A DNA stretch of 64,000 bases. Source: Alphaproteobacteria bacterium (GTDB lineage Bacteria; Pseudomonadota; Alphaproteobacteria; Bin65). Under the pieces are notes generated by a model, which saw nothing but the letters and a program-made list of their open reading frames with translations, did not search any database and was not told the DNA's origin. Shown one piece after another: positions 5,094 to 19,205 of the stretch. Each line of letters starts with the position of its first letter. The first letter of the stretch is position 1. The stretch is from NCBI GenBank assembly GCA_022819985.1, contig JAJEGH010000013.1:124001-188000 (forward strand), in the 5' to 3' direction. The position numbers and the translations under genes are program-made.

Positions 5094-5164
5094 TCCCGCG
5101 CCTGCATCGATTCCGCTGCCGGGGATTCGCGCCCGACCGGAACCCGCGAGGACGGAGGAGATCA

Positions 5165-6466
5165 GTGGAGAAATCTGTCGACGCGGAAGCGTTCCTCCGG
5201 TCCAGGGCCAGGGAAGACGCCGGTTTCCGCGAACGCCTTCTCGCCAGGCCCAAAGAAACGATCGAGCAGGAATTCGGCGTGACGCTGCCCGCAGAGCACG
5301 AGATTTTCGTGCACGAAGAAACCGACACCGCCACGCATCTGGTCCTTCCGCCGCCCGGCAAGTTCAGCGAAGCCGAACGGGAGGCGGCGAAAACCGGCGC
5401 CGCGTCCCTCGAGTTCCTTCGCAAGACGCTCTACGATCCCGCGCCGCCGCTTCGCCCCTCCGCCCCCCGGCGGACGAAAGCTCCGGGGAGCGCACCGACC
5501 TCCGGGGCGCTGGCGGAAGCGGGGCGGGAAAGCATCCGCCGCGGCCTCGACTTCCTGGAATCCGCCGTCGACGAAAACGGGGCCTGGCACTGCATCCGGT
5601 TCAATACGGCCGACCCGGACATCCCCCGGCATTTCGAAAGGCCTCCCTTCGTCTCGGCCCTGTGCGCGCTTGCTCTGGAAAGTTGCGGCGATGCGCGGGC
5701 CAGGGCGATCTGCACCGCGACAAAGGCCTGGCTGGCCGACACCATGGAATATCCCGGATTGTGGCGCTACTACCGCCACCTTCCCCAGGACCTCGACAGT
5801 ACCGCTCTCTGTTCGCTGGTCCTTGGAACGCACCCGTGGGTTTTTCTGGGCAGGAACGTTCCGCAAATCCTGAAGAATCGAAATGAGGACGGTTGTTTTC
5901 TGACCTGGGTGCTGGCGGACGGCGAACCCGATGTCGTGGCGCCCTTTCGTATCGAAGCCGACCCCGTGGTCAACGCGAATGTCATTGCCTATCTCGGCGA
6001 CCGTCCCGAAACCGGGCAGGCCCAACGATGGCTGGAAGGCCTGATCGCCGAAGACAGACTCGAGGGCTCGTCCAAATGGTATCCCGACACCGTCGCGATC
6101 TACTATGCGGTCGCCCGTGCCCTCGTTCGCGCCCGGCCCGCGCTCGAACGGCTCCGCCCGATGCTGGCGGACCGTATCCTGGGCCTGCGCGACGGCGACG
6201 GAGCATTCGGCAATGTCCTGCAGACCGCTCAGGCGGTGTCGGCGCTCTACGACATCGGGAGCCTCGAAAGAACCGACGCCGGACGCCAGGCGGAAAGGCT
6301 CGTAAGTGCGCAGCATGAAGACGGCAGCTGGCCGGAACTCCTCGCCTTTGGCGATCAGGAGGTAAAGTGGGGCCTCGCAGGACAGATCGGGCACGGCTCC
6401 GAGGCCGTGACTTCTGCGTTTTGCATCGAAGCGCTGGGGCGTCTCGCCGAAACCCTGGAAGCCTGA
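5165..6466 (+). CDS. NHLP leader fused to a terpenoid-cyclase/prenyltransferase (alpha/alpha toroid) domain
   Basis: A 433-aa protein in two parts. Residues 1-82 are a nitrile-hydratase-leader-peptide (NHLP) domain matching the precursor at 7767-8018: by hand, 24 of 48 residues are identical over the ungapped central block (F-R-E-R-L-L-A-R-P-K, then F-G-V-T-L-P, then V-H-E-E, then L-V-L-P-P). A Pro/Ala-rich linker (about 90-115) leads into a squalene-cyclase/prenyltransferase-like helical toroid. The toroid has a QW repeat Q-H-E-D-G-S-W at 383-389, a related D-G-D-G-A-F-G near 343-349, and D-L-D-S-T-A at 209-214, which resembles the class II cyclase acid motif DxDDTA with Ser at the third acidic position. 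At about 330 aa the toroid is half the size of squalene-hopene cyclase and close to protein-prenyltransferase beta subunits. The GTG at 5165 follows GGAGGAG. The product and substrate are unknown. Confidence 0.75.
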   Translation: MEKSVDAEAFLRSRAREDAGFRERLLARPKETIEQEFGVTLPAEHEIFVHEETDTATHLVLPPPGKFSEAEREAAKTGAASLEFLRKTLYDPAPPLRPSAPRRTKAPGSAPTSGALAEAGRESIRRGLDFLESAVDENGAWHCIRFNTADPDIPRHFERPPFVSALCALALESCGDARARAICTATKAWLADTMEYPGLWRYYRHLPQDLDSTALCSLVLGTHPWVFLGRNVPQILKNRNEDGCFLTWVLADGEPDVVAPFRIEADPVVNANVIAYLGDRPETGQAQRWLEGLIAEDRLEGSSKWYPDTVAIYYAVARALVRARPALERLRPMLADRILGLRDGDGAFGNVLQTAQAVSALYDIGSLERTDAGRQAERLVSAQHEDGSWPELLAFGDQEVKWGLAGQIGHGSEAVTSAFCIEALGRLAETLEA

Positions 6467-6505: not shown

Positions 6506-7618
6506 ATGGATATTGACGAGGCAATCACCCTTACCCAGGACCGTCTCGCCGAAGAGGGCGGCACCATGGGCGATTTGCTCGGGCATTTTCGAAACAGGAT
6601 TTCGCCGGTCCTGATCGGCGATTCGGAATGGGCGCGCATCCTCGAGTGCGCCGGCCGGCTTCCGATCGGAATGGGCGCCCTTCCGTTCGGTTTCGAACTG
6701 CCGCTGCACGCCCGCAGGCCGGAGGCGGATTTCGGCGCCTCCCTGGCGAGCGGAACCGGACCGGCGGCGTTTTTCCGGGAGCGCGCGCGGACCGACAAGA
6801 CGGATGAGACGGCGAGAGCGATCGGCAGGCTGTTCCGGCAAATGGAGGCCGAAAATTCGCCTCTGCGGGAAATTGTCGGCCGCAAGCTGATGCTGGAATA
6901 CGACATCGGCTCGGCGCCGAACGGCGCTTCTTCGTTTCCGGGCATGTTTCTCCGGCCCGGCGAACGGCCGATCGTCGGCGCCGGCGGTCAGGCGGGCGAT
7001 GTCGGTACGGTAGTCGATGCGCTCGTTTCCTGCGTAGGCTGGGAAACGAACGATGCCGAACGGGAGAATGTCAAACGGGCATATCTGGCGCAACCCGAAG
7101 ATACGCGCATGGATTCTTTCGGCGTATTTCCATCGCGCTCGCGGGAAATCCGCCTGGCTGTTATGGGCTTCAAATCGCAGGAGGATTTAGGTTCCTATCT
7201 CGAAAATACGGGTTGGCCGGGCCGGATATCGGCCGTCGATTCTGTGATTTCGCGCTTCAGGAAACGCGCGCAGATTATCAGGACGGGGGTTAATATCGAC
7301 GTCGGGGAAGAAGGGTTAGGCCCAACGCTCGGCCTGACGCTCATTGTCAAGCAAAGGTATACGAAGGATTCGCGTTACTGGCTCGACGGGCTGACCGATT
7401 GGGATCCGTTTCTGGACGCGTTGAGCCATGAGGACATCGTCGTTCCGGAAAAACTTGCGGCGCTTGCCGGCTGGGTATCGAAACCGACGCCGCTCTTTGC
7501 GAAATCCGGGCGTTTTGTACTGCTCCGCGGTATTCACCACATCAAGCTGGTGATATCCGGGAACCGGCTTGAGAAAGCCAAAGCCTATGTCTTTATGGTG
7601 CTTTCCGGCGCGGTCTGA
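6506..7618 (+). CDS. Uncharacterised protein, likely partner of the NHLP-fusion toroid protein
   Basis: A 370-aa soluble protein without signal peptide or membrane segment, starting 39 bp after the toroid gene and so probably co-transcribed. I do not recognise a functional domain. Visible features are a F-G-F-E-L-P-L segment near residue 73, W-L-D-G-L-T-D-W-D-P-F-L-D-A-L near 290, and a C-terminal H-H-I-K-L-V-x(9)-K-A-K-A-Y. The last two resemble an uncharacterised family I associate from memory with toroid genes in natural-product loci, as L-S-H-I-K-I-V-Y-x-P-x-x-P-L-E-A-K-A-Y; this cannot be checked here. It could be a tailoring enzyme or a scaffold. Confidence 0.65.
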   Translation: MDIDEAITLTQDRLAEEGGTMGDLLGHFRNRISPVLIGDSEWARILECAGRLPIGMGALPFGFELPLHARRPEADFGASLASGTGPAAFFRERARTDKTDETARAIGRLFRQMEAENSPLREIVGRKLMLEYDIGSAPNGASSFPGMFLRPGERPIVGAGGQAGDVGTVVDALVSCVGWETNDAERENVKRAYLAQPEDTRMDSFGVFPSRSREIRLAVMGFKSQEDLGSYLENTGWPGRISAVDSVISRFRKRAQIIRTGVNIDVGEEGLGPTLGLTLIVKQRYTKDSRYWLDGLTDWDPFLDALSHEDIVVPEKLAALAGWVSKPTPLFAKSGRFVLLRGIHHIKLVISGNRLEKAKAYVFMVLSGAV

Positions 7619-7766: not shown

Positions 7767-8018
7767 TTACCAGCAGCAGCACAGCCCGGCCGAGATAGCC
7801 TCGAGCTGCTCTTCGGTGATGTTCGGATCCGGCGGCAATGCAAGATGTACCGTCTGCATGTCGCTCTCATGGACCTGAATGTTCATCGAATCGGGAATTG
7901 TAATACCCAATTCCGCGCTGATCGTCGTCTTCGGATCTGCGAGCAGCTGTTGCCTGAAATCCGCATCCGTGGCGGACTTCTCAACAATCTGTTGCAGCAT
8001 TTCATCGCCACTTCTCAT
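7767..8018 (-). CDS. NHLP-family RiPP precursor peptide with Cys-Cys-Cys-Trp C-terminus
   Basis: An 83-aa peptide, MRSGDEMLQQIVEKS..., in the NHLP (nitrile hydratase alpha-subunit-like leader) family: F-R-Q-Q-L-L-A-D-P-K, then E-L-G-I-T-I-P, then V-H-E-S, then L-A-L-P-P-D-P-N, then E-E-Q-L-E-A-I-S-A-G. The leader ends with S-A-G, a double-glycine-type site for the C39 exporter at 13819-16029. The remaining core is Leu-Cys-Cys-Cys-Trp, only five residues. The ATG at 8018 is preferred over an upstream in-frame start because AAGGAG sits 7 bp before it. The gene has its own candidate promoter and a strong terminator, as expected for a highly expressed precursor. Modifications are unknown; the neighbouring halogenase homologue and toroid proteins are the obvious candidates. 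Confidence 0.88.
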   Translation of the reverse strand: MRSGDEMLQQIVEKSATDADFRQQLLADPKTTISAELGITIPDSMNIQVHESDMQTVHLALPPDPNITEEQLEAISAGLCCCW

Positions 8019-8217: not shown

Positions 8218-10647
8218 TCAGGCTTCCTTCCTCCCGCCCGGAGCGCCGGACCGGGGCGCAGGCGCGGCTTTCCCTTCAGATTCCTTCCGGGCAGACTTCT
8301 TCCGGTCCAGCACCGTCAGCAGCGCCGGCAAGAGCGAAAGGTCGGCAATGAGCGCAAAGGCGATAATCATCGCGGTCAGGACACCGACCTGTGCGGTGGG
8401 AATGAATGGAGAAAACACGAGGATCAAAAAGCCGGCCACCAGCACGGCCGTCGTCGTGAACAGGGCCCGGCCGGCCGTGTCGAAGGTCTGACGCACCGCG
8501 TCTTCGGGCCCCAGGCCGTGTTCGCGCCGCGCCCGGCGGTATTTGGCGAGGAAGTGCACCGTATCGTCCACGACGATGCCGACCGTCATGGCCACCACGA
8601 CGGACAGCGAGAGGCCCACTTGCCCGACCGTCAACCCCCAGACGCCGAAGCCCAGCACAGCGGGAAGCAGATTGGGAACGATGCTGATCAGGCCCAGCCG
8701 CAGCGACCGCAGGGCGAACAGGAGAATCGCGGAAATGGCCAGGAGCACGACCATCGTTCCGACCACCATGGCGCGGATGTTGCGCTGCCCGATATAGGCG
8801 AACAGCGCTGCCGGGCCGGTGCTGTTGACGCCGGCGACATGGGGGGCGTTCTCCTTCAGCCAGGCTTCGGCGCGCGCGTTCAGGGCGAGCAGTTCTTTCG
8901 AATCGAGCGTCTCCGCCGAAACCGACAGGCGCGTGGCGGACCTGGATCTGTCGATCTGGTTGTTCAGGTCCAGGCCCTGCGGAAGCGAAAGCTCGTAGAG
9001 CAGCAGATACTGTGCCGCCAGCTCGCTGCTTTCCGGAATCCGGTAGGCGGCCGGATCGTCGCCGTGCATGCTCTTGTTGAGCTGCCGGAAGGTGTCGGTG
9101 ATGACCGCCACATGGCGTACGGTGGGTTGCTTCCGGTACCATTCCGCGAATTTCGAAACCTCGGTCAGGAAACGGGGATCGGTGACTCCGCCCTCGGCCG
9201 GGGCCTGCAGCGAGTATTCGAGCAGGGTGTTGCCGCTCAGGCGCTCGTCCATGAAGTCCGTATCCTGCCGGAACTCGACGCTCTTATCGAAGAAATGAAC
9301 GAGGACGTCGTTGAGCTCGTTGCGCGGAACGGCCAGGGCCATCGCGACCGCGACCGCCAGCCAACCCCAGATCAGCGCCTTCCTGTAGCGCAGCACGGAA
9401 TCCGCCAGGCGGTTCATCGTGGGTCCGCGGAACCGGCGCTCCTTCGGGGCGCGCATCGGGAGAAGCGAAAGCAGGGCCGGCAGAAAAGTGACGGAGAGAA
9501 TGAAGGAAGCGGCGATACCGAAAGCGACGAAGATACCGAGATGACGGTAGGGCGGCACCTCGGAAAAATTCATGGCCAGGAATCCGAGCGCCGTCGTCAG
9601 GCTCGCCAGAAATACCGGATGCAGGTTGAGCCTGACGGATTCGACGATGGCATCGTGCCTGGAATCCCCGGCCCGCAGGCGCTGCTGCACCGTCACCAGC
9701 AGGTGCACGCAGTTCGCCACGACAATCATGAGCACGATGGTCGGCGCCGGCGATATGGGCGGGGAAAAGGGCAGTCCGATCCAAAAGCCCAAGCCCATCG
9801 ACGCGAGAATGGAAAAGACGACGACCGCCCCGGTCGCCGCCACGCCCGCCCAGCCCCGGATGAGGACGCCGAGGATCAGGGCCATGATCAGAAGACTTGC
9901 CGGCAGGAAGATCATCTGGCTGCCGATCGAGGCCTCCAGGAAGGTCTGGTTGATCATGACCGTCCCGACGATGCGAAGATCGATGCCGGGAAACCGTTCC
10001 TCCGCCTCCGCAGCGGCCGCTCTGGCGAATTCGGCAACTTCGGCCACGGCCTCCAACAGGCCCTCTTCCGGCATTTCCACGGTGACGTTTACGACGCTGA
10101 CATCGCCGTTCCGGGCCAGAATGCTGCCCGCGATGCGCGGGTCGGATAAAGCGATGGCGCGGATTCGCGACCGCGCTTCGGCCTGGCCCAGATCTCGGGG
10201 ATCGACCAGGTTGCGCACATACAGATCGTCGCCGTCGGCGGTCGTGTGCTGAAAATTGGCGAGCGAGTCGACGCGCCTCGAATAGGGTGTCTTCCAGGCT
10301 CTTTTTGTGAGCCATACGGCGGCCGAAAGCGCCTTTTGCGACGTGGCGTCGCCGTCGTCGGGAACGATCAGGAACGCGACGTTGTCGTTTTTCCCGTAGG
10401 TATTCTCCAGCGCTTCGAGCGCCAGAAGCTGCGGATTGTCTTCGTCGAAAAAGATGCGGTAGTTGGCGGAAAATTCGAGCAAAGCCATGCCGCCCGATGC
10501 GCCCGCAACGAAAAGCAGCGCCGCCAGGATGACCGGCCAGCGGGCCGCGAGCACCCGCTGGGCAAACCGCTTTGCGAATTGCTCTCCCGCTATGCCGAGT
10601 TTGTCCACGGGACCCGCGCTACCGATTTCAAACGCCCCCGATTTCAA
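8218..10647 (-). CDS. RND-superfamily (MMPL) efflux transporter
   Basis: An 809-aa inner-membrane protein with the duplicated RND layout: a transmembrane helix near residue 40, a large periplasmic loop (about 65-240), five to six helices, then a second helix and loop (about 430-600) and six more helices. Motifs include F-D-E-D-N-P-Q-L near 68, typical of the MMPL/HpnN-like group, and a charged tail ending G-G-R-K-E-A. Such transporters often pair with a periplasmic LolA-like protein, and one is encoded at 16849-17721. The longest frame starts with TTG at 10647 and no ribosome binding site; a GTG at 10608 is an alternative. The role is probably export of a hydrophobic product or lipid. Confidence 0.85.
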   Translation of the reverse strand: MKSGAFEIGSAGPVDKLGIAGEQFAKRFAQRVLAARWPVILAALLFVAGASGGMALLEFSANYRIFFDEDNPQLLALEALENTYGKNDNVAFLIVPDDGDATSQKALSAAVWLTKRAWKTPYSRRVDSLANFQHTTADGDDLYVRNLVDPRDLGQAEARSRIRAIALSDPRIAGSILARNGDVSVVNVTVEMPEEGLLEAVAEVAEFARAAAAEAEERFPGIDLRIVGTVMINQTFLEASIGSQMIFLPASLLIMALILGVLIRGWAGVAATGAVVVFSILASMGLGFWIGLPFSPPISPAPTIVLMIVVANCVHLLVTVQQRLRAGDSRHDAIVESVRLNLHPVFLASLTTALGFLAMNFSEVPPYRHLGIFVAFGIAASFILSVTFLPALLSLLPMRAPKERRFRGPTMNRLADSVLRYRKALIWGWLAVAVAMALAVPRNELNDVLVHFFDKSVEFRQDTDFMDERLSGNTLLEYSLQAPAEGGVTDPRFLTEVSKFAEWYRKQPTVRHVAVITDTFRQLNKSMHGDDPAAYRIPESSELAAQYLLLYELSLPQGLDLNNQIDRSRSATRLSVSAETLDSKELLALNARAEAWLKENAPHVAGVNSTGPAALFAYIGQRNIRAMVVGTMVVLLAISAILLFALRSLRLGLISIVPNLLPAVLGFGVWGLTVGQVGLSLSVVVAMTVGIVVDDTVHFLAKYRRARREHGLGPEDAVRQTFDTAGRALFTTTAVLVAGFLILVFSPFIPTAQVGVLTAMIIAFALIADLSLLPALLTVLDRKKSARKESEGKAAPAPRSGAPGGRKEA

Positions 10648-10876: not shown

Positions 10877-13819
10877 TCAGGCGATCTGCCGCCTGACCAG
10901 TTCGCGGAACACCCCGTCGACCTCCATGAGTTCGCCGAAGGAGCCGCTTTGCACGACTTTTCCGGCCTGCAGCACATAGATGCGGTCGGCCTGCTCCAGC
11001 GTGGACAGGCGGTGGGCGATGACGATCCGGGTGGACGTCAAGGCGGTAAGGTTCCGCATGACCTTCGCCTGGCTTTCGTTATCCAGCCAGTTGGTCGCCT
11101 CGTCGAACAGCACGATTCGCGGGCTGCCGATCACGGAGCGGGCGATGGTGATGCGCTGACTCTCGCCGCCGGACAGGACAGCCCCGCTGGTGCCGACCAT
11201 GGTCATCATGCCCATGGGCATGCCCCTGATCTGGTCTTCGACATCGGCGATCCGGACCGCCCTCCAGACTTCCTCGTTCTCCACGTCCTCGTGGTGACCG
11301 ACCAGATTGTCCCAGAGATCCTGCGGGTGGAGCCCGACCGATTGCGGCACCGCACCGATTTTCCGGCGCACCTGTTTCAGGTTCAGGTGCCTCAGGTCGC
11401 GTCCGTCGTAATACACCGCGCCGGCGGTCGGCCGGTCTATCCCGAGCGCGAGCCGGAACAGGGTGCTCTTGCCGGCGCCGGACTCGCCGGCGATCGCGAC
11501 GAATTCGCCGGCGCGGGCGCGAATCGTGACATCGTCGAGAACCAGCGGACCGTCGGAATCGTAGCGGAAGGAAACGCGGTCGAACAGAATATCGCCGCCC
11601 AGATATTCCACCGGCTCCCCCTCCGACCCGGATTCGGGTATGGCGGCGAGCAGCGGGCGCATCTGGTCGAACGCCGGCAGCATGGCCGCAACGGTGCCGA
11701 AAGACTCGCCGAGCCGCGCGATGGCGGACTGGAAGGCGATAAAGACGGTGTAGACGACGAGAAAATCGCCGACCGGGAGGTTCCGGTCGCCCACCGCAAC
11801 CGCCGCGAAAAGCAACGCCCCGCCGGCAAGAAAGGGGAGCGCGGCGCCGAACGCCCGCGAATGCGCCTCGAGCGCGCCCAGTTCGACCTCCGCGCGTTTC
11901 TGCTCGCGATAGTCCCGCGCCCACATGGCGAAGGCCGATCCTTCGGCGTTTTCGACGCGCAGCTTGCCGATGCCGCCGACGATCTGGAACAGCCGGCCGG
12001 TTACGCGGCGCGCGGCGCCGATCATTCGCCCGTAAGGCGAAATCTGGCGCAGCCCGAGTAACACGGTAATCAGCAGGGAAACCACGCTGAAAGCCAGCGC
12101 GACGACCCCCAGAGCGGTATCGTAGAAGAAGATGACGCCGAAAACCGGGAGCAGGAAAATGACCGACAGCAGGCTGTCGGCAACGACCCCCTGCAGGCCG
12201 TCGCGCAGATTCTGGAACGTCATTCCCGACATCGCCAGATCGCCGGACGGCCGGCGGTGCAGAACGCTCGGCGGAAGGCGCATGAGGCGGTCCCAGAAGG
12301 CAGCTTCGACCCGCGACGCCGAGCGGCCTTCGAGGCGCATCATCGCCGTGCTCTGAAGCAGGTGAAGCAGGGCGCCGAGCAGCCCGAACCCCGCCACCGC
12401 CGCCGCCACGGCATAGAGCGTTCCGGCGCTTCCGCCCGCTACGATGTGATTCGCAACGATCCCGAGCGCGAGGGCCGGCAGCAGCTTGATCAGTCCGCCC
12501 GGAAGCCCGGCGATCGCAAGCCGCGCCAGGTCGGCGGCCGATCCGTGCAGGGCGATCCCCAGCAGGTCCGCCGGTTTCACGTTCCCCGACGGCAATGGCC
12601 GATAGAACATCCAGGCTTCCTGGCGCAACGCGCCGGCGCGCTCCGCCGTGATCCGGACACGGCGCTTGCTGACCGGGTCGAATTCCCGGTAGCGCCCGAA
12701 CCGTCCCGGCAGCAGCGCTACCGGCCGGCCGTCCCCGGCCCGGAATGCCAGCATGGCGTTGCTGTCGCCGCGCCACCAGTCGTCCTCGGCCGTGAAGCGC
12801 ACGCGCCGGGCGCGCACGCCCGACGCATCGAGAATGTCGACGAGGCCGACCGGAGAATCGGAAGGTCCCGAGCGCACCGGAAATTTGAAATCGATTCCTT
12901 CGCGGCGGCCGATGACCCGCAGGGCATCCGCCAGCGCCGTATCCTCGACATCGGCGCCCCGGTCGATCGGCAGGTCGTAGATATTGAAGAGCCGCTGCCG
13001 CGCGGCTTTTTCGGCCGTCCGGCGGCTGGTTGTCCGCGCGCGTTCGAGATTTGCCTCGTCGACCACGGCCAGCTGGCGGTTGAGGCGTTCCAGCGTGAAG
13101 GCCACCGCGTGAAACGTGGCGAGCGCCGGCAGCAGCCTGCCTTGCTGCGCCAGCGTTTCGGTCGATTTGCCCGAAAGCGTCGTCTCGTCGAACAGGGTGA
13201 GCCAGCTTGTCCGCGTCAGCGGTATCTCCGGTTCGTGCAGGCCGCCTGCCTCGGCAAGTTCCGCCTGGTCGACAATGTCCATGCACAGGCTTGCGCCGCG
13301 CGGCGGTTCGGATACCCAGACCACACCGCGCCGTACCGACAGGGTGCACGGAGCCAGGGTTTGCGTCTGGCCGGGTTCGGCCAGTGCGGTCGGACGCGGA
13401 AGGCGGGTTGCGAAGCGCGAAAGCGTGTCGGTAATGGCGGTCAGCCAGGTATCGGTCTGTTCCGCGAGTTCCGCCGGATCGACCTCGGACAGCAGGGAGG
13501 CCGGCAGGCGTTTCAAAAGGGTGCCGGGCGATCCCTTGGCAATCAGGCTGAGCGTCGTGTCTTCCTCGTTGTTGCGCCGGTCAGGGGCGACGCCCGGCAG
13601 CAGCCGGCCCGCTTCGCGCCGCAACAAATGCTGCGGCGCAGCCTGCTCCACCCCGTCCTTGAATTCGACCAGGAACAGATTGACGGCGCCCCGGTCGATG
13701 AACCAGACGCTGTCCGGATCGTCGAGCGCGACCGGCAGGTTGCCGGCGCAGGGCACGGATGTGCCGGCGCGAACGGCGAGTTCGTCTATCGGGGTGTATT
13801 CGGACCCGGTGTCCGGCAT
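10877..13819 (-). CDS. NHLP-system ABC exporter, permease/ATPase subunit
   Basis: A 980-aa protein in the NHPM (NHLP export) two-ABC arrangement. The first ~400 residues are the family-specific cytoplasmic extension, followed by six membrane helices (about 430-700) and an ATPase domain. The ATPase has Walker A G-E-S-G-A-G-K-S-T, signature L-S-G-G-E-S-Q-R and Walker B R-I-V-L-F-D-E-A-T. It has no C39 peptidase domain; that lies on the partner. Its ATG shares one base with the partner's stop (TGATG), so the two are translationally coupled. With the adaptor at 16031 it should export the mature NHLP peptide. Confidence 0.88.
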   Translation of the reverse strand: MPDTGSEYTPIDELAVRAGTSVPCAGNLPVALDDPDSVWFIDRGAVNLFLVEFKDGVEQAAPQHLLRREAGRLLPGVAPDRRNNEEDTTLSLIAKGSPGTLLKRLPASLLSEVDPAELAEQTDTWLTAITDTLSRFATRLPRPTALAEPGQTQTLAPCTLSVRRGVVWVSEPPRGASLCMDIVDQAELAEAGGLHEPEIPLTRTSWLTLFDETTLSGKSTETLAQQGRLLPALATFHAVAFTLERLNRQLAVVDEANLERARTTSRRTAEKAARQRLFNIYDLPIDRGADVEDTALADALRVIGRREGIDFKFPVRSGPSDSPVGLVDILDASGVRARRVRFTAEDDWWRGDSNAMLAFRAGDGRPVALLPGRFGRYREFDPVSKRRVRITAERAGALRQEAWMFYRPLPSGNVKPADLLGIALHGSAADLARLAIAGLPGGLIKLLPALALGIVANHIVAGGSAGTLYAVAAAVAGFGLLGALLHLLQSTAMMRLEGRSASRVEAAFWDRLMRLPPSVLHRRPSGDLAMSGMTFQNLRDGLQGVVADSLLSVIFLLPVFGVIFFYDTALGVVALAFSVVSLLITVLLGLRQISPYGRMIGAARRVTGRLFQIVGGIGKLRVENAEGSAFAMWARDYREQKRAEVELGALEAHSRAFGAALPFLAGGALLFAAVAVGDRNLPVGDFLVVYTVFIAFQSAIARLGESFGTVAAMLPAFDQMRPLLAAIPESGSEGEPVEYLGGDILFDRVSFRYDSDGPLVLDDVTIRARAGEFVAIAGESGAGKSTLFRLALGIDRPTAGAVYYDGRDLRHLNLKQVRRKIGAVPQSVGLHPQDLWDNLVGHHEDVENEEVWRAVRIADVEDQIRGMPMGMMTMVGTSGAVLSGGESQRITIARSVIGSPRIVLFDEATNWLDNESQAKVMRNLTALTSTRIVIAHRLSTLEQADRIYVLQAGKVVQSGSFGELMEVDGVFRELVRRQIA

Positions 13820-16029
13820 CAGCCCGACCTGACCAGCTTTGAATACGGACCGTCCCGGTCGGCGATCAGCGTGTCGTGGGTGCCGCGCTGCACTTCGGCG
13901 CCGTTGTCGAGCACGATGATTTCGTCGCAATCCCGGACGGTGCTGAGCCGATGCGCCACGATCAAACAGGTGACCCCGCGGCGGCGCAGGGCCTCATCGA
14001 CATACTCCTCCGTCGCCGCATCGAGGGCGCTGGTCGCCTCGTCCAGAATGAGCACGGTCGGATTGCCCACCAGCGCACGGGCGATTTCCAGCCGTTGCCG
14101 CTGGCCGCCGCTGAAATTCGCCCCGCCCTCCTCGACATGCGTCGCATATCCCTGCGGCCTGAGCAGGATTTCGTCATGGATGCAGGCATCCCGCGCCGCG
14201 GCGAAGATGGCTTCGTCCGGAACGGCCGGGTTCCACAGGGTAATGTTGTCGCGCAGCGACGCGAAGAAGAGCACGCTCTCCTGAGCCACCATGGAAACGG
14301 ACCGCCGCAGCACTTCCTCGGGAATTTGGTCCCGCAGATGGCCATCGAACAGGATTTCGCCCGACCAGGGCCGATAGACCCCGGAAACCAGATGCGCCAG
14401 GGTCGACTTGCCGGAACCGCTGGGACCGACCACGGCAACCCGCTGCCCCGGCCTGATGACGAGGTTGAAGTCCTTTATCAGGGGCGGCCGGCTCCTGTTG
14501 AAACCGAAGGTGACGTCCCGCAATTCGAGCTGGCCGGCAAGCTGGAGCCGGCCCTTGAACGTGGGAATCGACTCCGCTTCCGGATTCCGGCGGGCGAAAA
14601 CGGGATCTTCGTCGGCTTTGGAGATGTCCTCGAGCCGCTGCAAATCCGTTTCGAGCGCCTGGCGCTTGTCGGTGAACTCCAGAAAGCGCCCGATCGGCGC
14701 CAGAAACATCTCCGCGAGGATATAGAAGGCGACGAGCGTTCCGAGGGTCATGTCCCCGGCCATGACCAGGCTTCCCCCGACGGCCAGGATCGCCGCGCTC
14801 CGAAGCGCCGCGATCAGGCCCGGCAGCGCGGTATTGACGGAGACCGGCTTGGAATAAAGCTGCCGCGCCCGCAATTCGCGTGCCTGCTGACCGCTCCAGC
14901 GCGAAAAGAACCGGTCGTCCGATCCCGTCATGCGCAGGTTGTCCGCATGACTCAACATCTGCATGCCGAAGCCGATCAGCAATCCCTGTTCGCGCCGCAT
15001 CGCCTGGCTTCGAACGGCCCGGAAGGCGTTGAGAAAGCGGGCCAGCATGCCGTGCAGAAGGGCCAGCAGCAGCACAATCAGGGTGAGCAGGATATCGTAG
15101 ACCAGCATCGCGACGAGCAGCACGACGCTCATCGCCATATCGATAAGGAGCACGAGAAACCGGTCCGTCAGATTCTTCGCGATCCTGTCGATGGACGAGA
15201 CCCGGTCGGTCAGATCGCCGACCAGCCGGTGCTCGAAAAACTCGATCGGCAACCGCAGCAGCCGCGACACGCTCCGGTTGTAGCCGCTCACCGAAATCCG
15301 GACAGCCAGGCGCTTCAGGAACCGGTGCTTGAGCACAAACAGGACGTATACCAGGACCCCGCCGCCGAGCAGGGCCGCCACCAGCCCGCCCCAGGGCGCG
15401 CGGTTTTCCAGAACGCCGTCCACGAAAATGTGAAGAGACGCGGGGACGATAAGACTCAGCACCGTCAGCATGAGCCCGCAGGCAATCACCCCGGTAAGCA
15501 CACTCCACGTTCCGGCGAGCAGGGCGCTTAATTGCTCGAACAGGCTCTTCCGCTCACCGCCGGGTTCGAAATCGGGACCGCGCTTGAAGCACAGCGCAAT
15601 GCCGCTGTACCCCTTGTCGAACTCTTCGGCGGAGAGCTTTCGTCTGCCGGTGGACGGATCGTTGAGAAAGAAATTCCGGCTGTCGTAGCCTTCGAGAACG
15701 ACGAAATGGCTGAATTGCCAGAACAGGATCAGGGGAAGCTGCAGCTTTTTCAGTCGATCGGTGCGCATGCTGAGCCCGTTGCATTCCAGACCGTAATGTC
15801 TGGAGGCGCGCACGATACTCGCAGCGCTGCTGCCGTCCCGGCTCACCTCGCATTTCTCGCGCAATTCGGTAAGCGGCACCCAGCGGCCGAAGTAAGCCAG
15901 TATGCTGCCGAGACATGCGGCGCCGCATTCGGACGCATGCATCTGCAACGTTATCGGCGTAACAACCTTTTGTTCCGGGAAGTCCGTTGCAGCCTTATCG
16001 CTCGTCCCTTTGGCGGCGCCCTGCGCCAT
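13819..16029 (-). CDS. NHLP-system peptidase/permease/ATPase (C39 exporter)
   Basis: A 736-aa protein combining a C39 leader peptidase, a six-helix membrane domain and an ATPase. The peptidase triad is C35 (S-E-C-G-A-A-C-L), H108 (F-S-H-F-V-V-L-E-G) and D124 (N-D-P-S-T-G). The ATPase has G-P-S-G-S-G-K-S-T, F-S-G-G-Q-R-Q-R and L-I-L-D-E-A-T-S. C39 domains cut after double-glycine-type sites, matching the S-A-G end of the precursor leader. The ATG at 16029 follows the adaptor stop by one base; a longer frame upstream overlaps the adaptor and is not C39-like. Confidence 0.9.
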   Translation of the reverse strand: MAQGAAKGTSDKAATDFPEQKVVTPITLQMHASECGAACLGSILAYFGRWVPLTELREKCEVSRDGSSAASIVRASRHYGLECNGLSMRTDRLKKLQLPLILFWQFSHFVVLEGYDSRNFFLNDPSTGRRKLSAEEFDKGYSGIALCFKRGPDFEPGGERKSLFEQLSALLAGTWSVLTGVIACGLMLTVLSLIVPASLHIFVDGVLENRAPWGGLVAALLGGGVLVYVLFVLKHRFLKRLAVRISVSGYNRSVSRLLRLPIEFFEHRLVGDLTDRVSSIDRIAKNLTDRFLVLLIDMAMSVVLLVAMLVYDILLTLIVLLLALLHGMLARFLNAFRAVRSQAMRREQGLLIGFGMQMLSHADNLRMTGSDDRFFSRWSGQQARELRARQLYSKPVSVNTALPGLIAALRSAAILAVGGSLVMAGDMTLGTLVAFYILAEMFLAPIGRFLEFTDKRQALETDLQRLEDISKADEDPVFARRNPEAESIPTFKGRLQLAGQLELRDVTFGFNRSRPPLIKDFNLVIRPGQRVAVVGPSGSGKSTLAHLVSGVYRPWSGEILFDGHLRDQIPEEVLRRSVSMVAQESVLFFASLRDNITLWNPAVPDEAIFAAARDACIHDEILLRPQGYATHVEEGGANFSGGQRQRLEIARALVGNPTVLILDEATSALDAATEEYVDEALRRRGVTCLIVAHRLSTVRDCDEIIVLDNGAEVQRGTHDTLIADRDGPYSKLVRSG

Positions 16030-16030
16030 A

Positions 16031-16573
16031 TTACGGCCGCCTTGTCCGCAAGAGCGTAACGGGAGACTGTCTGCCGAGTTCGACCGTAATCCGGCATTTC
16101 CTGCCCGCAAGGGACGCGATATCGAGGCCTTTCCCGAGCGCGACAACGATCCGGTGCGCCGATACCGGCTCGAACGCCGCCAGCCCCCCGGACGAGGGGA
16201 TAGCGGAAATTGCCGCGATCTCTCCGTCGAACGTTTCCGCGTCTCCGTCTGCCGTCTCCAGCTCTATCGCTGCCGGCATTCCGGCCCCGATCTGCAGCGC
16301 GGCACTTCTCTCGATCCAGACGACCGCCCGCACGGACCCTGCGCCATCGGGCAGGCTTTGGGCAGGCTGCGCCAGGACGCCTTCCAGCGTCGCGGTGCGG
16401 GCTACGCTGCCGAGGAAGAGCCATGCCGCGAGGATAACCGATAACAGAGCGATGCCGACGACTAGCAGACGCTCCCGCGGTGTGGAAATTGTCAGCAGCC
16501 TGTCGAGTTGTTCGCGTTCTTCTTTTGCTTCGGCGACAGTATTATGAAACGAGCTAAATGGATTGTTGAACAC
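16031..16573 (-). CDS. NHLP-system HlyD-like secretion adaptor
   Basis: About 180 aa: a short cytoplasmic segment with T-V-A-E-A-K-E-E-R-E-Q-L-D-R-L-L, then one membrane helix (V-V-G-I-A-L-L-S-V-I-L-A-A-W-L-F), then a small barrel-sandwich periplasmic domain. The long coiled-coil hairpin of classical HlyD proteins is missing, as in NHLP secretion adaptors. The GTG at 16573 is chosen over a TTG at 16660 because AGAAGG lies upstream and the TTG region is not adaptor-like; the start remains uncertain. It is the first gene of the export operon. Confidence 0.72.
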   Translation of the reverse strand: MFNNPFSSFHNTVAEAKEEREQLDRLLTISTPRERLLVVGIALLSVILAAWLFLGSVARTATLEGVLAQPAQSLPDGAGSVRAVVWIERSAALQIGAGMPAAIELETADGDAETFDGEIAAISAIPSSGGLAAFEPVSAHRIVVALGKGLDIASLAGRKCRITVELGRQSPVTLLRTRRP

Positions 16574-16649
16574 GACCGCACGAAGCCTTCTTATAAAGAT
16601 CGGACAAGGACACGGAATTTCTCGGCCGGCTTGAGCGAAGATTGGCGGA

Positions 16650-16680
16650 ATGATATGCAATTATGCCGGGGGAAGGTCAA
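16650..16680 (-). promoter_or_regulatory. Candidate promoter of the NHLP export operon
   Basis: On the minus strand TTGACC (16680-16675) is followed after 19 bp by TATCAT (16655-16650; 5 of 6). It lies in the gap between the adaptor gene and the divergent LolA-like gene and would favour the GTG start at 16573 over the TTG at 16660. Confidence 0.35.
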
Positions 16681-16848: not shown

Positions 16849-17721
16849 ATGCCCTCTGACCGCGAAATCGCCGGGAAACGTCTGACCGGCCAAGGCAGCA
16901 CGAAGGGGTTTCCAGGCCCGCGGGACGCGTTGTTCGGCGTTCTGTTTCTGGCGCTCGCGTGCCTCTGCCTGCCGATTGCCCCTGCCCTCGCCCAGAGCGA
17001 AACGCCGGAGGACAAGGGCCTGAGAATTGCGCGCGAAACCAGCGCCCGCAACGACGGTTTCGGAGATTTTACCGCCGGATTGACGATGGTGCTGCGCGAC
17101 CGGCACGGCCGGGAAAGCGTCCGCAAGATGCGCTTCAAGGTGCTGGAGGTGCCGGGGGACGGCGACAAGAGCCTGTTCGTTTTCGATCAGCCGCCGGCCG
17201 TGCGGGGAACCGCCCTCCTGACTCACGGCCACATCAACACCCAGGACGACCAGTGGCTGTTTCTGCCGGCCCTGAAAAGGGTAAAGCGCATCAACGCTTC
17301 GCGGCGCTCAGGGTCGTTCATGGGCAGCGAGTTTTCCTATGAGGACATGAGCACTCCGGAGGTGGAGGAATACACCTACAAATATCTTCGCGACGAGCCC
17401 TGCGGCAAACTCGTGTGCACCGTGATCGAGCAGGTTCCCCTGGATGAGGAATCCGGATACAGCCGCAAGGTCCTTTGGCAGGACACGGGCGAACTTCGAA
17501 CCTGGAAGATGGAGCTTTACGACCGGAAGGGTTCGCACCTCAAGACGCTCACTTTTGCAAACTACCGGCAGTATCTGGACCGGTACTGGCGGGCAACGGA
17601 ACAGACGATGGAGAACCATCTGACCGGTGCGAGCACGGTACTCAAATGGACGGGGTTCCGGTTTCGCACCGATCTGGACCACAGCGAGTTCACCCAGACG
17701 GCGCTCCGGCGCGTACGCTGA
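16849..17721 (+). CDS. Outer-membrane lipoprotein-sorting (LolA-like) protein
   Basis: A 290-aa periplasmic protein. A basic N-terminus is followed by a hydrophobic stretch (A-L-F-G-V-L-F-L-A-L-A-C-L-C-L-P) and an A-L-A-Q cleavage site near residue 48. The mature part has features of the LolA-like proteins that accompany MMPL transporters: F-D-Q-P-P-A-V-R-G-T-A-L-L-T-H near 120, L-P-A-L-K-R-V-K-R-I near 140, and G-S-E-F-S-Y-E-D-M near 160. It likely receives a hydrophobic cargo from the RND transporter at 8218-10647. The gene stands between the export operon and the halogenase homologue; the ATG at 16849 gives the best signal peptide. Confidence 0.82.
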   Translation: MPSDREIAGKRLTGQGSTKGFPGPRDALFGVLFLALACLCLPIAPALAQSETPEDKGLRIARETSARNDGFGDFTAGLTMVLRDRHGRESVRKMRFKVLEVPGDGDKSLFVFDQPPAVRGTALLTHGHINTQDDQWLFLPALKRVKRINASRRSGSFMGSEFSYEDMSTPEVEEYTYKYLRDEPCGKLVCTVIEQVPLDEESGYSRKVLWQDTGELRTWKMELYDRKGSHLKTLTFANYRQYLDRYWRATEQTMENHLTGASTVLKWTGFRFRTDLDHSEFTQTALRRVR

Positions 17722-17745
17722 TGCAATCCGGCGGCGCGATTGGGG

Positions 17746-17775
17746 CCCCCACATTCATGGCCCCCACATTCATGG
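17746..17775 (+). repeat. 15-bp tandem direct repeat
   Basis: CCCCCACATTCATGG occurs twice back to back (17746-17760, 17761-17775), followed by two copies of CTGGCGC. It lies in the 209-bp gap before the halogenase homologue and is probably a slippage duplication. Confidence 0.6.
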
Positions 17776-17930
17776 CTGGCGCGTTCACGGCTGGCGCAAA
17801 ACGGTCCGGGGCCGGCGCTTTGCCGGGATTTTTGCGGCGATGCCGGGATTGAGGTAGCCTGCCGTATCCATGGCCCGTCCGGATTTCCCGGCGATGGGCA
17901 ACCGATCGACAGTTCCGGAAGTCGTGCACA

Positions 17931-19205
17931 GTGATACTGCCGGGCGCAAAATCGTTGCGGAGGATCGCGGTCGTCGGGCGGGGAACCGCCGGGTCCCTGG
18001 CAGCCGCCAGCGCAGCGAAGCTTCTGCCCGGCGACGACCTCGAACTGCACCACATCTACGATTCGCGCATCCCGGTCATCGGGGTGGGCGAAGGCAGTTG
18101 GCCGAGCCTGGTCCAGGAATTGCACAAGCTGACGGACCTGCCCCACGAAACCGTCCAGCAGCGCCTGAAAGGAACGCGCAAATACGGCGTCGCCTTCGAG
18201 GGATGGGGCCGGCGCAACCGGGACTTCACCCACTTCTTCACGCCGCAGCAGGTGTCCTACGCCTACCATCTGTCCGCCGACCTCCTGGCGGAGCTGCTGC
18301 ACGAAAGCACGCGCGCGCGCCATATCGACGCCGAAGTGCTCGATATCTCCAGGGTGGAGGGCGGCGCGCAGGTGGAGTTCAGGGACCTGCCGCCGGAACG
18401 CTACGACCTAGTCTTCGATGCGCGCGGGTTTCCGAAGGAACTCCATCCCGAGCAGCACATCGACATTTCTTTCATCCCCACCAATACCGCCGTCATCCGC
18501 CGCTGTCCGGCGGTTATCGGGGAGGACGGGGACGGGCCGGTCCTGCAGCATACCTACACCCGCGCCGTGGCGCGTCCGCACGGCTGGATCTTCGTCATTC
18601 CGCTGACGGTGCACACGTCCTACGGCTACATCTTCAACCGCGATATGTCCGACCTTGCCGACGTCGAAACGGACTTCAGCGAATTCCTCGAAGCCGACGG
18701 CGTATCGGAATTCGAGCAGCGCGCCGTCATTCCATTCCCCAATTTCGTGCACCGCCGGATCTTCGACGGCGCGGTGGCCCGGGTCGGCAATGCAGCGGCC
18801 TTCATGGAGCCCCTCGAGGCGACGGCGATCGTATCCGCCCAGTTGCAGATCGGCATGATTCTCCACATGCGTCTCAACCGGCCGGTGGAGAATCTCGAGC
18901 GCGACGCGCCGACGGTAAACCGGTTTCTCATCGACACCATACTCCGCTACGGCCTGTTCGTCGGCTGGCACTATTCCTGCGGCTCCCGGTACGACAGCAG
19001 GTTCTGGCGCCACGCCCGCGAGCGGGTCTGGCCCCGGCACCGCAAGGCCGCCGCCCCCGAGGCGGTGGATTGCGCCGCGCTCGCCAGGTTCGACGAAATG
19101 ATCGAACTGCTGAACCGGCCGGTCATCGACCAGGAGGACTGGAACCGGATGTGCGCCGTGCCCCTCACCAGCTACGCCCAGATGTCCCAGAATCTCGGCT
19201 GCTAG
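17931..19205 (+). CDS. Flavin-dependent tryptophan-halogenase family protein
   Basis: A 424-aa cytoplasmic flavoprotein. The FAD-binding motif is G16-R-G-T-A-G21, followed by the family's G-V-G-E-G-S-W-P (51-58; usual form G-E-A-T-x-P). K84 (G-T-R-K-Y-G-V-A-F-E-G-W) aligns with the catalytic Lys79 of RebH, and E293 or E296 in F-M-E-P-L-E-A-T matches the conserved Glu segment. The usual W-x-W-x-I-P is W-I-F-V-I-P (219-224), with the second Trp changed to Phe. It is shorter than RebH/PrnA (about 530 aa), mainly at the C-terminus. The GTG at 17931 is the first plausible start. It may halogenate the Trp of the neighbouring LCCCW core (inference); a free small-molecule substrate or a non-halogenating role are alternatives. 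Confidence 0.78.
   Translation: MILPGAKSLRRIAVVGRGTAGSLAAASAAKLLPGDDLELHHIYDSRIPVIGVGEGSWPSLVQELHKLTDLPHETVQQRLKGTRKYGVAFEGWGRRNRDFTHFFTPQQVSYAYHLSADLLAELLHESTRARHIDAEVLDISRVEGGAQVEFRDLPPERYDLVFDARGFPKELHPEQHIDISFIPTNTAVIRRCPAVIGEDGDGPVLQHTYTRAVARPHGWIFVIPLTVHTSYGYIFNRDMSDLADVETDFSEFLEADGVSEFEQRAVIPFPNFVHRRIFDGAVARVGNAAAFMEPLEATAIVSAQLQIGMILHMRLNRPVENLERDAPTVNRFLIDTILRYGLFVGWHYSCGSRYDSRFWRHARERVWPRHRKAAAPEAVDCAALARFDEMIELLNRPVIDQEDWNRMCAVPLTSYAQMSQNLGC

Follow-up and report, generated by a model that had tools for sequence, protein, structure and literature searches.

The window discussed here, by which we mean the whole stretch of 64,000 nucleotides that was analysed, contains a gene whose product combines an N-terminal NHLP leader domain with a conserved tail, a variable linker and a C-terminal alpha/alpha toroid predicted to have the fold of a class II terpene cyclase (Table 1). 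The reading frame has a GTG start and no internal stop, and a GGAGGAG ribosome-binding site lies upstream. A 370-aa partner gene, a SrpE-type proteusin precursor gene, genes for NHLP export and a gene for a tryptophan halogenase family protein follow downstream. In the open reading frame of the ABC transporter that lacks the peptidase, some 330 residues precede the family match.

Table 1. Features of the fusion gene and its neighbors, with positions in the window
Feature	Position	Strand	Remark
Ribosome-binding site region, ggacggagga	5150..5159	+	from sequence
Fusion gene: NHLP leader domain, conserved tail, linker and class II terpene-cyclase-type toroid	5165..6466	+	433 aa
NHLP leader domain, residues 1-78	5165..5398	+	gapless vs SrpE leader; Arg72 replaces second Leu of L(X)4L
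Conserved tail, residues 79-97, AASLEFLRKTLYDPAPPLR	5399..5455	+	occupies the precursor's core position
Variable linker, residues 98-115	5456..5509	+	mean column conservation 0.48 across 101-120
Alpha/alpha toroid, predicted class II terpene cyclase fold, residues 116-433 (318 residues)	5510..6463	+	
DLDS motif, residues 209-212	5789..5800	+	D211 aligned with catalytic Asp of drimenol synthases
370-aa partner, ABBA/DMATS-type aromatic prenyltransferase fold	6506..7618	+	predicted model
SrpE-type proteusin precursor, core LCCCW (core 7770-7784)	7767..8018	-	83 aa
MMPL/RND-type transporter-like protein	8218..10647	-	longest ORF
NHLP export ABC transporter without peptidase, TIGR03797-like	10877..13930	-	longest ORF, start uncertain
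NHLP export ABC transporter with C39 peptidase, TIGR03796-like	13819..16146	-	longest ORF, start uncertain
HlyD-like adaptor, short, partial TIGR03794 match	16031..16660	-	start uncertain
LolA-like outer-membrane lipoprotein-sorting protein, PF17131	16663..17721	+	longest ORF
Tryptophan halogenase family protein, SrpI position	17931..19205	+	

Judged from sequence, the locus is a proteusin cluster of the srp type, with an LCCCW precursor, a tryptophan halogenase, C39/ABC export and a YcaO gene on another contig. The available text of the srp papers describes these clusters as widespread, cryptic sponge RiPP pathways in which SrpE has the core LCCCW (PMC10858898, PMC10286304). With the srp clusters (SrpE/SrpC/SrpI), the locus shares this core, an equal leader length, Ile/Leu at leader position 67 and Leu/Met at position 72, the halogenase gene and a spread over phyla; a YcaO gene is common to both as well, though in this genome it lies outside the locus on another contig. 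In their available descriptions, the clusters comprise a precursor, a YcaO and a brominase, to which the predicted prenyltransferase and the leader-fused cyclase are added here (PMC10858898, PMC10286304). Elsewhere in the window's own genome, contig C50 (L133:10039-14964) carries the YcaO and a desaturase-type gene together, away from the rest of the cluster.

Conservation of the fusion and its neighborhood

A scan of genome contigs found the fusion encoded in 79 of 79 loci, at 58-90% identity to the window protein; 78 of these reading frames are complete, and the remaining one, L109, is cut by a contig end. Since all 79 loci elsewhere encode the same fusion, a frameshift or an assembly or sequencing error that joined two genes is ruled out.

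The preliminary description had proposed surveying the fusion beside the 370-aa family, and this association is borne out. Among the 41 loci with both 10-kb flanks present, the 370-aa gene was found in all 41, the precursor in 40, YcaO in 39, a desaturase-type enzyme in 32, the halogenase in 30, the MMPL protein in 22 and the LolA-like protein in 15. Over the full set of 79 loci, in which many are truncated, the corresponding counts are 66, 56, 68, 58, 46, 32 and 20. The neighbors were counted by tblastn with identity floors of 30-55% on contigs many of which end early. The desaturase-type enzyme is a membrane protein of the fatty-acid-desaturase type that continues into a GlnE-like C-terminal part (L034:11372-13768; L133:12604-14964), and it may tailor the isoprenyl group. 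Together with the MMPL and LolA-like proteins, it would fit a lipid-like product.

LCCCW ends 54 of the 60 precursor reading frames recovered from 56 loci. Four loci (L056, L059, L062 and L074) have a second precursor with the core WCCCGN, WCCCGQ or MCCCGI beside the LCCCW precursor. An orphan SrpE-type precursor with the core LCCCW was also seen in genome G005 (L166:10443-10760), where the 18 kb examined contain no further srp gene.

The NHLP leader domain and its altered determinants

The leader of the neighboring precursor (window 7785-8018, minus strand) aligns without gaps to residues 1-78 of the fusion protein, with 28 of 78 identities, and within residues 18-65 the count is 24 of 48, exactly as the preliminary description had it. 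None of 100,000 shuffles reached 28 identities, the maximum being 16. The Gly that ends the leader, previously placed at residue 82, is residue 78 in both the fused and the precursor leaders. In hmmscan, the NCBIfam model of the NHLP leader, TIGR03793, matches residues 10-64 with an E-value of 1.7e-12 and 47.0 bits, against a curated cut-off of 50.9 bits; in a six-frame search of the genome itself, the fused leader received 50.8 bits and was scored as above the cut-off with in-frame neighbors. A search with the leader alone matched MprE7, an NHLP leader of solved structure (8tb1, E 1.2e-5), as well as nitrile hydratase alpha chains, and the profile of the whole family matched the same two over residues 4-67 (7.8e-7 and 1.6e-9, respectively). 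Nitrile-hydratase-alpha-like proteins, cellular relatives of the leader fold, are encoded in the same genome on contigs C43 (L003) and C18 (L004). The precursor hallmark of TIGR03793, a short core after the final Gly, is absent; the tail, the linker and the 318-residue toroid stand there instead. In short, the fused domain shares with NHLP leaders and proteusin precursors (TIGR03793; MprE7, 8tb1) the leader fold, the length, the profile matches and the end at Gly78, but differs in lacking both a core and L(X)4L, in having another alpha-1 contact face and in being followed by a conserved tail and an enzyme.

L(X)4L is the motif that C39 domains read, according to the accessible part of the source (PMC12715784), and published work has it read by SrpI and by YcaO RREs as well. 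Fused and SrpE leaders have a common residue numbering. In SrpE, the two Leu of the motif stand at positions 67 and 72, and their joint replacement by Ala is reported to nearly abolish bromination (published srp work, PMC10858898 / PMC10286304). The SrpE leaders of the loci studied here (n = 54) have Ile (51), Leu (2) or Met (1) at position 67 and Leu (45) or Met (9) at position 72. Fused leaders have Arg at position 72 in every one of 79 rows, and at position 67 they mostly have Leu (38), Phe (27), Tyr (7), Arg (5) or Ile (2). YcaO binding is reported to require, in addition to L(X)4L, alpha-1 positions mapped on MprE7. Placed by way of the 8tb1 alignment, the contact residues 6, 9, 10, 13 and 16 read for the most part E/Q/Q/E/A in SrpE, as against D/D/(F,L)/S/G in the fused leaders, a comparison that is indirect because the mapping was made for another YcaO, of which SrpE is no substrate.

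Other parts of the domain are strongly conserved in the 79-row alignment, from which L109 was left out. D18, L25, E36, H58, P63, E71, R72 and G78 are present in every row, and the residue at -2 relative to the Gly78 end is Thr in 59 of 79. In the tail, S81, L85, P92, A93, P94 and R97 are invariant, and residues 79-97 are among the best conserved. Pairwise dN/dS was calculated for 11 chosen pairs of fusion genes. For the NHLP part, nine pairs give a defined ratio, which is 0.15-0.36 in eight of them and 1.31 in the pair L056/L062; for the tail, it is 0-0.26 in all nine defined pairs, and for the toroid 0.08-0.26 in 11 of 11. The fused leader no longer has the features that turn a leader into a substrate, namely L(X)4L, the mapped RRE-contact face and the core, and is retained for some role other than being a substrate. 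The earlier suggestion that the protein docks on the same partners as the precursor is only partly likely: the SrpI and YcaO contacts that have been mapped are altered in the fused leader, which would therefore require a different partner or a different surface.

The toroid and its neighbor as predicted cyclase and prenyltransferase

An AlphaFold2 model of the fusion protein, based on 64 sequences (alignment A1, the window plus 63 of the 79 loci), has a pLDDT of 87 (87.1). Its toroid is nearest to the drimenol synthase AsDMS (Foldseek 9.1e-13; VIA Z 30.8 over 286 residues at 2.3 A). MstE follows with a VIA Z of 27.1 over 306 residues at 3.4 A, short squalene-hopene cyclases match too, and the first non-terpene toroids in the VIA comparison appear at a Z of about 18. 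A profile of the toroid alone finds the drimenol synthase 9mhs at 3.7e-10 and places DLDST on DLDTT; in the toroid profile alignment, D211 shares its column with the Asp that is exchanged in AsDMS D333N. The DLDS motif (D209-L-D-S212), in which the third Asp of DxDD is Ser (S212), is invariant in 79 of 79 rows, and dozens of further toroid positions are invariant or nearly so in these rows. At the motif, unfused relatives of the toroid read DCDDTA, DLDS or EVDS. The likeness to AsDMS, MstE and the short squalene-hopene cyclases thus covers the fold over residues 109-433, the catalytic Asp of DxD and QW-like motifs, whereas identity to class II cyclases is only about 16-23%, no HAD domain is present, an NHLP domain stands at the N-terminus and DxDS replaces DxDD. 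Its predicted fold places the toroid among the class II terpene cyclases, and it is presumed to be catalytic.

The model and the profile confirm that a toroid stands behind the leader in place of a core peptide. It had been described as a "terpene-cyclase/prenyltransferase fold", of which the first half was right and, given the fold matches and the DLDS alignment, can be sharpened to a class II cyclase; the second half belongs to the neighboring gene. The model of the 370-aa partner, from 40 sequences (alignment A2, 38 srp-type genes and two distant ones), has a pLDDT of 91.0. Its best 50 Foldseek matches are all aromatic prenyltransferases (Foldseek 6.3e-6), and the best VIA match is the indole prenyltransferase MpnD (Z 16.7, 302 residues, 4.5 A). 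Profile searches gave no significant family in Pfam or NCBIfam and no match in the PDB. By predicted fold, the partner is an ABBA/DMATS prenyltransferase. Unfused toroids of the family also keep its company: in four of the five loci fetched (G002:C87, G043, G171 and G372:C196), toroid and homologous prenyltransferase genes are adjacent, and in the fifth, G269, they lie 8 kb apart.

Precursor cores and the residue modified

In published work on related systems, tryptophan serves as an acceptor. PalQ is reported to prenylate the C-terminal Trp of an NHLP precursor. As described in the accessible parts of the sources, MppC of the mpp cluster geranylates a peptide Trp with its leader bound (PMC11791876, PMC12715784), and NctPC first adds C20 to Trp and then cyclises it with an MstE-like domain (PMC13290415). 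In the published srp work, as available, SrpI brominates the Trp of the SrpE core, which is the proposed prenylation site here; bromination and prenylation would consequently share one indole.

The loci with an unfused toroid offer a comparison. Genome G269 has 11 NHLP precursors with 10 different cores, every one of which ends in Trp; a tryptophan halogenase was searched for in this genome and none was found. On the contig with the unfused pair in G002 (C87), the precursor ends DSW, that of G372:C196 ends DSY, i.e., in Tyr, and the G043 and G171 precursors have an internal Trp. G004, a genome of the same genus as the window's, encodes a prenyltransferase that shares 54% identity with the window's, together with a Trp-free core, LCCCGI, and neither a cyclase nor a halogenase was found in it. 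Its prenyltransferase must therefore use another residue, and on account of this genome Trp accompanies the cyclase and the halogenase, not the prenyltransferase alone.

Two of these clusters deserve description in their own right. The G269 precursors (L137:8280-12649, L126:740-1890) form a tandem array with hypervariable cores, close to the unfused class II cyclase and a prenyltransferase; because the C-terminal tryptophan is constant throughout, they amount to a natural combinatorial library around one fixed residue. The variant cluster of G004 (L135:10661-10930, 16902-18026) joins the LCCCGI core to a prenyltransferase and a YcaO.

Proposed mechanism and alternatives

A prenylated, ring-closed tryptophan is indicated by both predicted folds, that of the cyclase toroid and that of its prenyltransferase neighbor. 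In the joint explanation that we prefer, and to which we give a little better than an even chance, the fusion protein is a peptide-directed class II cyclase that contributes to such a product and the leader serves it as a permanent docking domain. The prenyltransferase (ABBA/DMATS fold) would put an isoprenyl chain on the C-terminal aromatic residue of SrpE, the Trp of LCCCW, and the DLDS toroid would then protonate and ring-close the peptide-bound chain. The fused NHLP domain would be a former precursor leader that kept the leader fold, lost the core, L(X)4L and the YcaO-contact face, and now tethers the cyclase to one of two partners, the leader-binding prenyltransferase or the SrpE leader itself. 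We thus infer a catalytic activity, an order of prenylation and then cyclisation, Trp as the site, and a docking role with its partner. Several observations speak against the explanation: the Trp-free core of G004, the Tyr at the end of the G372 core and the internal Trp of G043 and G171, the single indole that bromination and prenylation would have to share, the dN/dS of 1.31 in L056/L062, Ser in place of the third Asp of DxDD, and the loss of the mapped SrpI and YcaO surfaces, which would equally suit a domain that binds nothing. By analogy, the prenyltransferase is the best candidate for this partner and the SrpE leader comes second. MppC, which has the same class of fold, grips the structured part of a Nif11-type leader by inserting two hydrophobic side chains, as described in the available part of the source (PMC12715784); the prenyltransferase is favored because the MppC-leader contact does not rest on L(X)4L alone. 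A wider version strikes us as possible but doubtful: a domesticated RiPP leader would join the subunits in the leader site of the prenyltransferase or by pairing with the SrpE leader, as a non-covalent counterpart of NctPC, and srp clusters across phyla would make peptides with a terpene ring on the C-terminal Trp.

The order of the two reactions could be reversed, with the cyclase acting on free farnesyl or geranylgeranyl diphosphate, the prenyltransferase taking the ring-closed diphosphate and the leader being unrelated to any peptide-bound substrate. Drimenol synthases, the closest solved folds, do act on diphosphates. An ABBA prenyltransferase, however, requires an allylic diphosphate donor, and class II closure of a free prenyl diphosphate (e.g., farnesyl diphosphate) uses up the allylic double bond. 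We prefer prenylation as the first step because closure would destroy the donor; on general chemistry, a ring-closed farnesyl product is a poor donor for this type of enzyme. NctPC also prenylates before cyclising, as far as its available description goes (PMC13290415), and we regard the reversed order as quite unlikely. That the toroid might be a non-catalytic scaffold holding maturation enzymes is suggested by the missing third Asp of DxDD (S212), but D209 and D211, like dozens of other positions, show little or no variation in the 79 rows and drimenol synthases themselves have DxDTT, which makes a scaffold very unlikely in our judgment.

With respect to the leader, a folding or stabilizing cap, or a relic of the fusion with no binding partner, would explain why L(X)4L and the alpha-1 RRE face, the two partner surfaces that have been mapped, have changed and why unfused relatives manage without a leader. 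We consider this unlikely, given that the domain is kept in 79 of 79 loci with invariant residues, a conserved new tail and purifying selection in most pairs. The preliminary description had also raised maturation by C39 cleavage. Taken to its end, the fusion would be a giant precursor cut at Gly78 by the C39 transporter, which would export the toroid. Gly78 is indeed invariant and stands exactly at the end of the precursor leader, but L(X)4L is broken by Arg72 in every row, residue -2 is Thr in 59 of 79, the stretch behind the supposed cleavage site is highly conserved, and the cargo would be a folded 350-residue enzyme in need of a cytoplasmic prenylated substrate. We give this reading hardly any credence, and the alignments favor a permanent docking domain over C39 maturation.

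Relationship to known systems

Both srp clusters and pairs of a prenyltransferase and a cyclase in RiPP pathways are already known kinds. Borosins offer another natural joining of precursor parts with a maturation enzyme, the precursor core being fused to its own methyltransferase. There the core is kept as a substrate in cis, whereas the window fusion keeps the leader only and the core is gone. NctPC/ChrPC, as described in the available part of the source, likewise bring an ABBA prenyltransferase and an MstE-like terpene cyclase to a RiPP tryptophan (PMC13290415), but in one polypeptide, where the locus studied here has two separate genes. The mpp cluster (mppC/mppD) has prenyltransferase and terpene synthase genes beside a SrpI relative (PMC11791876, PMC12715784). 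From NctPC/ChrPC and mpp, as far as they are described in these sources, the window-type cyclase differs in that it alone bears an NHLP leader domain. The literature searched, with the founding srp and NctPC papers outside its scope, yielded, by titles and abstract openings and in the texts consulted, no fusion of a leader with an enzyme or of NHLP with a cyclase, no comparable loss of docking motifs in such a leader, and no prenyltransferase-cyclase pair in srp clusters.

The conserved prenyltransferase and cyclase predict that the srp product is a tryptophan peptide that is brominated and/or terpene-modified, which gives mass spectrometry a concrete target. If the preferred explanation is true, it suggests that srp-type peptides carry an attached, ring-closed terpene. 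A leader that acts as an enzyme docking domain would then be a new mode of assembly for RiPP enzymes, and such a domain could be used to join enzymes by design.

Distribution and evolution

The taxa with which the 79 loci are labeled include Alpha-, Gamma- and Deltaproteobacteria, Gemmatimonadetes, Acidobacteria, Nitrospirales, Nitrospinota, Binatia and Latescibacterota, although single assignments may be wrong because most of these loci are from metagenome bins. In a tree of the toroids (alignment A3, 18 fused and 5 unfused), the fused rows all stand on one side of a branch with support of 97/99, in a bootstrap that had not converged and with long branches among the unfused rows. The fused toroids form one clade in this tree, which is consistent with a single fusion event. 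The origin proposed earlier, by fusion of a precursor-type leader to an enzyme, agrees with this branch and with the position of unfused toroids next to NHLP precursors.

The tree of the leaders has 57 rows and 78 columns, with 25 fused leaders (the window and 24 of the 79 loci) and one partial one, and its bootstrap had not converged. A starred branch (96/86) unites SrpE with every other precursor and contains no fused leader. SrpE is accordingly disfavored as a recent source of the fused leader, on a tree that is weak evidence because long branches misplace the NHase rows and L108.

Among 143 relatives of the window genome, eight have a match, in each case to the toroid or to the NHLP leader alone. 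Across 398 genomes of the phylum, one other toroid was found, in G666, with the motif DMDDTA and beside a P450-like gene; the 3.5-kb stretch of G666 gave no match to the prenyltransferase profile. On plasmids, the sole match is a 28%-identical toroid within an annotated tetratricopeptide repeat protein of Nostoc.
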